Shown here piece by piece: positions 41,897-47,990 of a stretch of DNA of 64,000 bases. The notes under the pieces were generated by a model. The model had not been told where the DNA came from and did no database searches. It was given only the letters and a program-made list of their open reading frames with translations. Every line of letters begins with the position of its first letter. The first letter of the stretch is position 1. Made by a program: the position numbers and the translations under genes. The stretch is from Pseudanabaena frigida (GTDB taxonomy: Bacteria; Cyanobacteriota; Cyanobacteriia; Pseudanabaenales; Pseudanabaenaceae). The DNA lies in contig QBML01000005.1 in the NCBI GenBank assembly GCA_003242085.1, positions 1-64,000 on the forward strand. The letters are read 5' to 3'.

Positions 41897-43906
41897 TTAG
41901 CCATCCTGAAGCCAATCTTGAAGTCTTCCATCATCGCGCAAGTTATCAAACCTAGACTCATTCTTTGCGATAGTTCGATAGACTTCTGGTGCAATTTGGA
42001 TAACTTGTAATAAATCTTTTAATGCAAGGTCAAGCTTATTCTCTCCAGAATAAGCGCAGGCTCTACTATAGATAGCTTGATGATAATTAGGATTGATTTG
42101 TAATACATGATCGTAAGACATTATCTCTTCTTCAAATTTTCCCAAATTACTAAAAGCAATACCGCGATGATAAGCTGCAAGATACTTGTTAGGTTCAAAT
42201 GAAATAGCTTGATCGAACGAAAAAATAGCTTCTTCGTATAATTCAAAATGTTGTTGAAGCAAGCCGAGGAAAAACCATACTTGTGCTTTACTGGAATCTA
42301 TTTCTAAGGCTCGGTTACAAGAAATGAGAGCTTCTTCATGCTTACCTAAGTTGTTGAGTGCTAAGCTTCTATATAGCCAAGCATCATAATATCGAGGAGA
42401 AATCTCTAGAGCTTTATCAAAAACAGCAACTGCTTCTAAATTTTTGTCATACTCCTTTTGACCGAATTTCATTAATGTTAAACCTTGTCGATACCATAAT
42501 GATGGATCATCAGGATTAATTTCTATGGCTTTATGGTAACAAGTGATCGCCTCTTCCAACTTATTTAAACTATCTAGAGCAATTGCTTTGGCATACCATG
42601 CATTAAAGTAATTGGGTTTGATTTCTATTGCATTGTAATAGGAAGCGATCCCCTCTTCTATCCTGTTCAAGTTTTTGAGACATACTCCCCGCGCATACCA
42701 AGCTAATAGATATTGAGGATTGATTTTCAAAGCTCTATCATAAGAAGCAATTGCTTCATCATATTTATTGATTTTTTGTAAAGACCATCCTCGATGGTAC
42801 CAAGCTAAATCATAAGTCTTACAACATTGCAAAAAATTATCGTAAGACAAAATAGCATCTTCATAACTGCCTATTGCTCCCAGAGCATTGCCACGGTTAT
42901 ACCAAGCAGAGTAGAAGTTTGGATCATTTTTTAAAGTAATGTCAAAAGAATAAACTGCTTCTTGATATCTCCCTAAATAATTGAGCGAACAACCTCTTTC
43001 GTACGATACATAAGTATTATTTATTCCGCCCGACAATGCCTTATCACATAAACATAGAACTTCTTCATACCTATTTAAATCCTTTAAAATTGATAATAGT
43101 GATCGCAATGTTTTTTGACAGTGCGGCTCGATTGTTAGAGACTGTTCGAGTGCAGAAATCGCTTCTTTATAATTACCTATACTACTTAACGTATACCCAT
43201 ACTCAAACCATACTTCATGATTGAATGAATTAATTTCTAACAATTGTTTGAATACTATTATAGATTCCTCTTCTTTATTTACTAGCATCAAAGATTTTGC
43301 CAGACCAAACAAAGCTTGAAAGTGATTTAGCTCAATCCACAAAACTTCCTTAAAGGACTTAATTGCCTCTAAATGCCTGTCAATTTCCGCCAACTTCAGA
43401 CCTCTATTCAAGTGAGATTCAAAGTCATTTGGATTTTTTACAATTGCCTCTTCATAGGTAATGAAGGGTTCTTGTAACTTTAGCTCTACCGTTAAACGAT
43501 TATATAGAGTTGTATGAGTATCTAACTTGATCGCCAAAGCTTTATCTTAGGCGGCTATTGCTTCTTGATTTCTACCTAAATTGTCCAGTGTAAAGCCTAA
43601 ATCTGCCCAAGCATTATGATGAGTTGGATCAACTTCTATAGCTTTATAAAAAGAGTCAAGTGCTTCTTCGTATCTTGCTAAAATTTGTAAAACTATACCG
43701 CGAAAGCATAAAGCGTCATAATCATTAGGAGAGCAATCCAAAGCTTGATCGATGTTTGATAAAGCTTCTACAAATTTCCCAGAATTAAAATTCTCTAGTC
43801 CATTGTTGAACAGGGTCTTATAGATATCAACTTTGTTATTCAAGACTTGTTCGTTAGAAATTAATTCTTTGTCTTCACCGTATGATGCTTTAGCTTTATC
43901 AGTCAT
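41897..43906 (-). pseudogene. TPR protein gene split by a single in-frame TAA
   Basis: One frame of 670 codons, ATG 43906 to stop 41897, is interrupted only by TAA at 43549-43547 (codon 120). The flanking residues are EAIAA-stop-DKALAIK, where the usual TPR residue is Tyr (AIAAYDKAL), so TAT or TAC to TAA is the simplest event. The second part begins at a TTG (43537) with no ribosome binding site, so I treat both parts as one gene. It has about sixteen tandem 34-residue TPRs (YYDAWLYRSLALNNLGKHEEAL style). No signal peptide. TPR arrays mediate protein binding; the partner is unknown. Readthrough or sequencing error remain possible. Confidence 0.75.
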
Positions 43907-45946: not shown

Positions 45947-46372
45947 ATGCAGAAACTTATAAGCATTGTGCTCAGTGCCTTTTTACTTACAAATTGTGCG
46001 CCTGAACCTCAACCACCAACTATAGCTGATACGCCACAAAATCAAAGCTCGCCCATTGCCAGCCTCACTCAATCTCAAGCAAAACCTAAGGTTGCATCCA
46101 ATAGTTCACGCCCCCCATTATCAAAATTTGTTGGTAAATGGTTAGTTACAGACAAAAACGGCAACAAATATAATATGGAGTTTACTGCTAATGGACTACT
46201 AACATCTTCAGCAGATGGTTATCCTGTTTCTGGCAACATATCATGGGCGTTTGCTGACGATACTCATTTGATTTTTGGCAATCAAAATACTGCTGCATTT
46301 CGGTTTGAGGGAAATGACACTTTGATTATTGGCGAACCACCTGAAGTGCTGAAGTACCAAAGAGTGAAGTGA
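45947..46372 (+). CDS. Small lipoprotein of unknown function
   Basis: 141 residues with a lipoprotein signal MQKLISIVLSAFLLTNCAPE (lipobox LTNC), a Pro/Ser/Gln-rich linker, then a compact beta domain of about 75 residues from KFVGKWLVTDKNGNKYNMEF to LIIGEPPEVLKYQRVK. The GKW...LEF...ISW...DDTHLIF pattern looks like short lipocalin-like or META-type barrels found in other bacterial lipoproteins (resemblance only). It is anchored at a membrane. Confidence 0.7.
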   Translation: MQKLISIVLSAFLLTNCAPEPQPPTIADTPQNQSSPIASLTQSQAKPKVASNSSRPPLSKFVGKWLVTDKNGNKYNMEFTANGLLTSSADGYPVSGNISWAFADDTHLIFGNQNTAAFRFEGNDTLIIGEPPEVLKYQRVK

Positions 46373-46419
46373 TATAGCCGATTGCTGCATGGCGTAATTT
46401 ATTTATGCAAATAGTACAG

Positions 46420-46470
46420 GCTTCGACTTTGCTAAGCCAACGTAGGCTTTTGGCTGAGCAAAGTCGAAGC
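46420..46470. repeat. Inverted repeat with CTTCGACTTTGC arms
   Basis: GCTTCGACTTTGCT-A-AGCC pairs with GGCT-G-AGCAAAGTCGAAGC, with one mismatch. It resembles the hairpin at 16181-16230. It lies after the lipoprotein gene and may terminate it. Confidence 0.6.
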
Positions 46471-46621
46471 TTCTTTTATTTCATTTAGGATTGCCATAGC
46501 GATCGCGAGATTTTTCTTTTGTATTGTCAAATCCTAATTTGTCGGCTATATTAGCTTTCAGGTTGAATAAACCTTCGATGTCTGACATCGAACCACTTTT
46601 GATATTAAACATTTAGATAAC

Positions 46622-46630
46622 AGGAGGTGA
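46622..46630 (+). promoter_or_regulatory. Unusually strong Shine-Dalgarno
   Basis: AGGAGGTGA complements the 3' end of 16S rRNA over nine bases. It is placed eight bases before ATG 46636. Such full matches are rare in this window, so it marks a deliberate translation start. Confidence 0.7.
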
Positions 46631-46635
46631 TGCCC

Positions 46636-46710
46636 ATGCAATCAGATAGTAGTAACGGTAAACGTATGGGTCTTCAGGTTTCCGAGCTGTGCGCTGGGGC
46701 TGTTCTGTAA
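46636..46710 (+). CDS. 24-residue peptide or leader ORF
   Basis: ATG 46636 to TAA 46710 follows the perfect Shine-Dalgarno at 46622-46630. The peptide begins MQSDSSNGKRMGLQ and ends ELCAGAVL. It has one Cys and no membrane helix. The end of the coding region (TCAGGTTT at 46674-46681) can pair with AAACCTGA about 75 bases downstream, and a strong terminator follows at 46811. So this is a short transcript with a peptide and structured RNA; a regulatory leader or small RNA is an alternative to a functional peptide. I do not recognise it. Confidence 0.5.
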   Translation: MQSDSSNGKRMGLQVSELCAGAVL

Positions 46711-46810
46711 GGTATTTAGTTAATTATCTCTAGTTCGCTAGTTTAATTTCCTAGTAAACCTGAGATCCTTCCAGCAGTTGACTGTGACCTAAAGATCCTA
46801 AAGTATTCCG

Positions 46811-46849
46811 AAACAAAAAGACCTTGCCAATGGCAAGGTCTTTTTGTTT
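46811..46849 (+). terminator. Terminator of the 24-residue ORF transcript
   Basis: AAACAAAAAGACCTTGCCA / TGGCAAGGTCTTTTTGTTT, a perfect 19-bp stem with a one-base gap, containing its own A- and T-runs. No larger gene precedes it closely on the plus strand, so it probably ends the short transcript that starts near 46.6 kb. Confidence 0.75.
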
Positions 46850-46854
46850 GAAGG

Positions 46855-46898: not shown

Positions 46899-47990
46899 TT
46901 ATGCGCTGGTGAGGAATAAAATTACATCGCCTTCCTGAACGACATATTCTTTACCTTCACTGCGTAACAATCCTTTCGAACGAGCAGCACTCATTGACCC
47001 AGATTCTATAAGGTCTTTGAAGGCAACAGTCTCCGCTCGAATGAAAGCTTTCTCAAAATCAGAGTGAATCACTCCTGCAGCTTGTGGAGCTTTCATTCCA
47101 GCATGAATTGTCCATGCCCGTGCTTCTTTGGGGCCAACTGTAAAATATGTGCGTAACCCCAAGAGATGATAAGTCGCTCGGATTAAGGATTTTAAACCAC
47201 CTTCTTTGACTCCAAGAGACTCAAGAAAATCTTGACGTTCATCATCTGGCAATTCTAGTAATTCAGCCTCAACTTGAGCAGAAACAATCGTCACTTCCGC
47301 ATTTTCGGCTGTAGCGATCGCCTTCACCTTATCGACAAAAGCATTACCTGTAGCTAGATCGTCTTCAGAGACATTCGCCGCATAAATTGTGGGCTTGAGA
47401 GTAAGTAACTGCAATACCGAAATTGCTTCTTTTTCCTCATCCGTGAGATTGGCTAACCGAGCAGGTTTACCAGCATCGAGAGTTTCGCGTACTTTTTCAA
47501 GAGCTGCTAATTCGATTTTGGCATCAGCATCGGCACGAGCAGCTTTGCGAGTACGATCGATACGGCGATCGACTTGGGCTAAATCTGATAAGGCGAGTTC
47601 GAGGGTAATGATCTCGATATCACGAGCAGGATCGATTGATGCTTCAACATGGATGATGTCGTCATTCTCAAAACAGCGGACGACATGCACGATCGCATCG
47701 CATACTCGAATATTTCCTAAAAATTGATTTCCCAGACCTTCGCCTTTGCTTGCGCCTCTAACAAGTCCTGCAATATCGACAAATTCGACTCTAGTTGGTA
47801 CGATTTGCGCGGACTTACCAACTTCAGCGAGGGTAGTTAGGCGATCGTCAGGGACGGACACCGAGCCAACATTGGGTTCGATTGTACAAAAGGGAAAGTT
47901 GGCTGCTTCCGCTTTTGCGTTGGCAACTAGGGCATTAAATAACGTAGACTTGCCCACATTGGGTAGTCCGACAATCCCAGCTTTGAGCAT
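46899..47990 (-). CDS. ychF: Redox-regulated ATPase YchF (OLA1 family)
   Basis: 363 residues of the Obg-related YchF/OLA1 family, which binds ATP more readily than GTP. G1 [14 protein letters not shown] is at residues 7-20, G2/G3 [13 protein letters not shown], and the G4 equivalent is NVSED instead of NKxD, the basis of ATP preference. A helical hairpin (about residues 128-190) and a C-terminal TGS domain (from [20 protein letters not shown]) complete the protein. Ribosome association and oxidative-stress roles are family knowledge. ATG start, single gene. Confidence 0.96.

Follow-up and report, generated by a model that had tools for sequence, protein, structure and literature searches.

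Between a small lipoprotein-like open reading frame (ORF) and ychF, the Pseudanabaena frigida contig carries a transcription unit of about 290 nt with an ORF of 24 codons. Is this unit a messenger for a short peptide, an RNA that acts through its fold, or both at once? The window analyzed here is the whole 64,000-nt stretch, and the element was compared with its counterparts throughout the cyanobacterial class.

A self-contained transcription unit

The unit contains a promoter, the AGGAGGTGA ribosome-binding region, the ORF, and a terminator, placed among its neighbors as follows.

45947-46372: small lipoprotein-like ORF upstream, with no significant Pfam family
46524-46552, + strand: promoter TTGTCA-17 nt-TATATT, 10 of 12 consensus matches
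46622-46627, + strand: Shine-Dalgarno (SD) sequence AGGAGG inside AGGAGGTGAT, 8 nt ahead of the start codon
46636-46710, + strand: 24-codon ORF MQSDSSNGKRMGLQVSELCAGAVL; homologous ORFs mostly of 23 to 24 codons across the class
46811-46849, + strand: terminator hairpin found by folding, 18 bp with a 3-nt loop and a T-rich end; a perfect 19-nt inverted repeat
46899-47990, - strand: ychF, convergent, with Pfam YchF-GTPase_C

Within the genus, the aligned promoter boxes (TATTGTCAAAT and TATATT) were kept but the bases farther upstream varied, and transcription is inferred to start near 46559. This genus-wide promoter and the terminator support the stand-alone transcript that a sequence-only reading of this DNA had proposed. 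The SD and the 24-residue ORF that it had pointed out are indeed present (AGGAGGTGA at 46622-46630, ATG at 46636, TAA at 46708-46710), and no larger gene follows on the same strand, the next gene being the convergent ychF. Its description of the terminator as a perfect 19-bp stem holds for the inverted repeat at 46811-46849 but not for the fold, which has 18 bp closed by a 3-nt loop. A terminator scan of the window listed this hairpin on neither strand, probably because the T run sits within the stem. The hairpin is nearly palindromic and therefore probably serves the convergent ychF as well. It is specific to the genus and takes the place that other genera give to a terminator of the form CUAGACCGC...GCGGAUAG, in which the middle pair of CUA/UAG was, by manual count over 90 sequences, U-A in 82, U-G in 1, and C-G in 7. 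Compared with dinucleotide-shuffled sequences, the whole transcript folded more stably by 15 kcal/mol than their average (z = -3.19). A long inverted repeat (GGCTTCGACTTTGCT...AGCAAAGTCGAAGC, 46418-46473) was also seen between the lipoprotein-like ORF and the promoter of the element.

Taken by itself the SD is ordinary, since a search of the 5.4-Mb genome gave 4 occurrences of the pattern AGGAGGTGAN{2,8}ATG and 2 of a reversed control. It is conservation, rather than the SD itself, that exceeds chance. GGAGGTG was invariant across a 56-sequence alignment (A2; 56 of 59 sequences, leaving out L031, L035, and L045), the rows of which had been collected by a pattern that contains GGAGGTG.

Distribution of the element across cyanobacteria

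DNA comparison found the element in 46 of 58 relatives, and outside the genus the matching part was the SD and ORF. A sequence-only model of this 5' module (R1, built from 56 regions, 6 of them from the genus of the window) matched 292 of 388 sampled class genomes, 249 of the 334 of good quality, and 137 of 160 genera, in a single copy per genome with one listed exception. The sequence-only reading had proposed a covariance search across cyanobacteria and had named a lack of conservation outside the strain among the outcomes that would refute it; such a lack is decisively ruled out. R1 also located the element in all 30 genomes picked from the lower-scoring matches; two of these (4.7 to 5.1 Mb), with the peptide MSIPGTSLNLRTANGRLCAGAVAL, look like Gloeobacter by their size. 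The named contigs carrying an exact pattern were cyanobacterial by title in 77 of 77 cases. No copy was seen outside the class: the 94 matches among 292 phylum genomes were all in the same class or nearer, the share of other classes in that set not being given. The viral contig set held no exact match that would suggest phage carriage. R1 and R2 (a fold model built without the genus of the window) did not find the element in genus g24 or in the small genomes listed for family f2, which we take from genome size to be the marine Synechococcus/Prochlorococcus lineage.

Neither in the window nor in another 18 loci did any Rfam family reach its gathering threshold on the element, and across nine divergent loci the sole Rfam match at E < 0.5, to a viral frameshift model of 24 nt, lay upstream of the element in L180. 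Weaker Rfam matches (E up to 10), mostly to microRNA models on the terminator or an upstream hairpin, were far below gathering scores and were taken as chance.

The element is very probably ncl0160, an sRNA predicted in both Synechocystis 6803 and Nostoc 7120 (PMC4734099); the identification is drawn from the published description, because the text of that paper carries no sequence with which ours could be compared. As described there, ncl0160 was surveyed in 89 genomes with 83 homologs found, is likely translated into 23 to 25 aa, and has an RBS, an ATG or in a few cases a GTG start, and a stop codon that is TAA in 47, TAG in 34, and TGA in 2 of the 83; the survey omitted the marine Prochlorococcus/Synechococcus lineage (PMC4734099). 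The element resembles it in its wide cyanobacterial spread, its ORF of about 23 to 25 codons, its RBS, its ATG or occasional GTG start, and its use of all three stop codons with TAA the commonest. Covariation analysis, lineages with early stops, and Gloeobacter-like copies are added here to the account given in the available parts of PMC4734099. The conserved fold may likewise be an addition of this analysis, although the predicted ncl0160 structure published as a supplementary figure (PMC4734099) could contain the same helix. The literature search returned no study on the function of ncl0160, which goes without mention in the accessible portions of PMC5126843 and PMC6166021. Yfr1 and Yfr2 are likewise sRNAs spread through the phylum (PMC4734099, PMC6778093), and Yfr1, as described in the former, measures 54 to 57 nt and carries an invariable motif that is presumably single-stranded; the element differs in being about 290 nt long, in carrying an ORF, and in staying below every Rfam threshold in the scanned loci.

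A conserved long-range fold between the ORF and the 3' part of the RNA

From GGGUC on, the codons of the ORF pair with a second conserved block in the 3' part of the RNA. In most lineages this block (TTCCTYCCGGCAGTC...GACCC) follows the ORF and is itself followed by the CUAGACCGC...GCGGAUAG terminator. The corresponding features of the window are listed here.

46668-46680, + strand: 5' strand of the long-range helix, GGGUCUUCAGGUU, inside the ORF; from MFE folding, covariation in 101 relatives, and R2
46786-46798, + strand: 3' strand of the long-range helix, GACCUAAAGAUCC, forming 12 pairs with 46668-46680; from MFE folding, genus comparison, and R2
46685-46688, + strand: helix 3, AGCU with AGUU at 46776-46779; assigned in the window from the R2 alignment
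46693-46699, + strand: helix 4, GCUGGGG with UUCCAGC at 46769-46775
46756-46768, + strand: alternative, genus-variable 3' partner AAACCUGAGAUCC, pairing in most members of the genus

The alignment used to assess the fold (A3) started from 187 located elements, with 53 loci missed by the pattern, including L001 to L024 of the genus of the window. Removal of 5 elements without a found 3' block, of 2 that were too long, and of near-duplicates left 102 sequences, and leaving out L178 gave 101 distinct sequences, all from outside the genus of the window. Over five helices and 29 pairs, 94.8% of cells were paired, whereas sliding the partner by one column reduced this to 54.2 and 52.9%. Two-sided changes were present at 18 pairs and in 141 cells, compared with 9.6 and 31.1 in shuffles, and none of 500 shuffles reached any of these measures; the shuffles lack relatedness and so make the structure look better than it is, but the slid controls retain relatedness and still fall far below. 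Helix 2 had two-sided changes at all seven of its pairs (for example, CAGGUUG/CAACCUG and CUGAUUG/CAAUCAG), and the patterns used to find the element, though they constrain portions of helices 1, 3, and 4, leave every base of helix 2 free. The homologs of helices 3 and 4 were 97.9 and 98.7% paired in the 101 sequences; two-sided changes occurred at three of the six pairs of the former, and the window has a compensatory U-A version of one pair of the latter. R2 matched the window only at 46666-46811 (55 bits, E = 1.2e-11), and a search of the whole genome returned the same element as its sole match (E = 1.0e-9).

The sequence-only reading had paired TCAGGTTT (46674-46681) with AAACCTGA (46756-46763). 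These segments can pair, but the second of them is variable among members of the genus, and we rejected it as the conserved partner: L020 and L022 have clearly lost it, while the homologous strand is retained throughout. Within the genus (23 of 24 loci, L024 being unmatched by the expression), GACCTAAAGATCC at 46786-46798 was kept in 12 of 12 distinct combinations, and it is also matched by the model from other genera. Two members of the genus with TCAGATTT have AATCTCAAGATCC in the homologous strand, a compensating change.

Two local hairpins were considered and set aside. One at the start codon (GCCCAU/AUGGGU) was 94.6% paired on A2, with zero two-sided changes and a result no better than that of shuffles; the other (CCGGC/GCCGG) was weak, its 4 two-sided cells placing it below the long-range alternative. 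Because both are poorly supported, a clean two-state switch was dropped from the main claim.

Probable translation of the frame and constraint on the peptide

The ORF at 46636-46710 belongs to no Pfam family, and evidence for its translation was sought in the alignments. The stop codon lies at one position in 56 of 56 sequences of A2 (TAA in 34, TAG in 21, and TGA in 1), and the start is GTG in L035 and L045. Between fixed anchors the ORF strand is 41 nt long in every one of 101 sequences while its partner strand takes six lengths, from 23 to 28 nt, and this constancy beside a variable paired strand supports translation. The distance from ATG to GGGU, where the hairpin begins, is 23 nt in 86 of 90 sequences and 26 nt in the remaining 4, with a single frame throughout, and in the window it is 32 nt in the same frame; some of the three-base insertions are AGT repeats, for which slippage alone would preserve the frame. 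Rearranged start regions in L164, L169, L170, and L172 retain an SD and an in-frame ATG, and L186 has a strongly altered ORF (MGDSSSSSSPSIHLMELMELME...) after the same SD and start region.

These observations bear on the possibility that the element is a purely noncoding structured sRNA whose ORF arises incidentally from a conserved motif resembling a ribosome site. The strong covariation, the weak amino acid constraint, the early stops, and the one frameshift would all suit such an RNA, but it would account poorly for an ORF strand free of indels in every one of the 101 sequences opposite a paired strand with many, for length changes between ATG and hairpin that preserve the frame, and for the use of all three stop codons at a single position. 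We regard this explanation as improbable.

The peptide itself appears to be under looser control. An early stop after codon 17 was found in 5 of 30 divergent genomes (L158, L165, L171, L176, and L187, of which three belong to a single family), and the draft genome L168 has a frameshift through a one-base deletion. In L176 the TGA at codon 18 is followed by an in-frame AGTVL and a second TGA, which may be a recent stop or a possible read-through. The third bases of the DSSK codons are nearly fixed (AGT in 80, AGT in 81, and AAA in 74 of 87), and such invariance at the third positions of AGT AGT AAA points to selection on RNA rather than on peptide. The ratio pN/pS was 0.57, and the residues at paired codons (QV, QA, QT, and LI) track base pairing. 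As judged from these alignments, the peptide sequence is loosely held apart from its D/E-S-S-K start and an R-L, and the early stops, the frameshift, and the codons that follow RNA pairing argue against strong peptide selection. Our conclusion is that translation of the frame is probable but that much of the conservation lies at the RNA level. The bioactive peptide offered by the sequence-only reading is only a possibility: several codons vary with the RNA pairing rather than so as to preserve amino acids, and the ORF of some lineages ends after 17 codons. The peptide may still have its own function.

A related explanation is that the element is a plain small mRNA whose product is the 17- to 24-aa peptide, with a hairpin that merely tunes the speed of translation or shields the RNA from decay. 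The frame, start, stop, and SD are all retained, as that explanation expects, and some family f1 loci retain DSSK. The sister genera G027, G031, and G033, of the same family, gave no R2 match and yet keep the SD, the start codon, and a short ORF, with DSSK in some; the two parts are therefore separable, and the start region may have a role independent of the hairpin. A gene for a peptide alone would nevertheless have no need of 18 covarying pairs, and its residues would not be expected to follow base pairing at the paired codons, its serine and lysine codons to hold their third bases, or its C terminus to be removed by early stops. A plain mRNA is in our estimation a possible but rather unlikely account.

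A possible dual-function RNA and a proposed role for translation

The comparisons support a promoter, a terminator, an SD, a start codon, a maintained frame, and a covarying hairpin in a single element, and the frame conservation and fold together support an arrangement in which the 5' strand of the hairpin is the ORF and the 3' strand lies after the stop codon. We put at an even chance the interpretation that the window holds one copy of an RNA that is ancient in cyanobacteria and dual in function, a minimal mRNA and a folded RNA in one, in which translation would open the hairpin; the gating step is inferred. The covarying fold and the maintained reading frame both favor the dual-function small RNA that the sequence-only reading had named as its other option.

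On the proposed mechanism, an initiating ribosome would occupy the start site while the hairpin stayed intact. The leading edge of a ribosome lies about 15 nt beyond the start codon, and an initiating ribosome need not melt the hairpin because in most lineages the hairpin starts 23 nt (32 nt here) past the A of the start codon. Elongation would then unzip it and free the 3' strand UUCCUYCCGGCAGUC...CAACCUGAAGACCC, and this pyrimidine-rich strand could pair with putative targets or be processed; without ribosomes the hairpin would stay closed. A bolder form of the proposal, which we hold only tentatively and think less likely to be right than wrong by a wide measure, places a translation-gated switch at the root of the living cyanobacteria, Gloeobacter-like genomes included, with an ORF strand of 17 to 24 codons in which the passage of the ribosome, and not the peptide, would expose the active 3' half.

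The AGGAGGTGAT context and the near-constant spacing from ATG to hairpin could also be read as the marks of a ribosome-binding RNA, in which a long anti-SD match captures the 30S subunit and the hairpin stalls it just after initiation, so that the RNA acts on ribosomes and not on a target mRNA. The SD is, however, shortened or moved in L164, L170, and L172, and its pattern is not unique in the genome; we consider this very unlikely.

The proposed dual-function RNA has partial parallels. SgrS/SgrT, RNAIII, and SR1 likewise combine a short ORF with an RNA-level role in one short transcript. In those systems the ORF and the pairing region are mainly separate, whereas in this element one strand of the conserved fold is formed by the ORF, so that the same stretch of RNA bears coding and structural constraint together. 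The significance of the element lies in its being a near-universal, single-copy cyanobacterial RNA with no Rfam entry and no known function found in literature searches, for which the fold now supplies exact base pairs to break and restore. If translation gates the hairpin, cyanobacteria would own an old and simple sensor of ribosome activity.

Genomic neighborhood

An SD, a short ORF, long-range pairing, and a terminator within one transcript are also the components of leader-peptide attenuators. The element shares that order but has no fixed downstream gene, and its neighbors are convergent in several lineages. That it is such an attenuator governing a downstream gene draws some encouragement from the pterin dehydratase or porin gene found downstream in some lineages; against it, 5 of 20 loci, that of the window among them, are followed by a convergent large ORF, and the neighbors change while the RNA stays, with no conserved downstream gene on the same strand. 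We give this explanation scarcely any weight. The downstream genes in question, for a pterin-4a-carbinolamine dehydratase and an OprB/SLH porin, recur in several lineages (4520-7025 in L097 and similar loci).

Upstream, 7 of 20 loci (L097, L094, L066, L055, L033, L039, and L041) have an ORF, presumably psbD (photosystem II D2) from its MTIAV start, that ends 184 to 350 nt before the element; in L097 it was assigned to Photo_RC by Pfam. Many draft contigs end just upstream of the element, which may be because psbD is duplicated. The contig ends had also suggested a location next to rRNA operons, which was rejected, as the scanned loci contain no rRNA. The usual 16S rRNA 3' end (GGATCACCTCCTTT) was not found in the 67 contigs of the source assembly, and hence the rRNA operon may be missing from it or may end differently. 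Elsewhere in the window, two adjacent TPR-like ORFs of 119 and 546 aa on the - strand (41897-43906) resemble one gene broken by a frameshift or stop.
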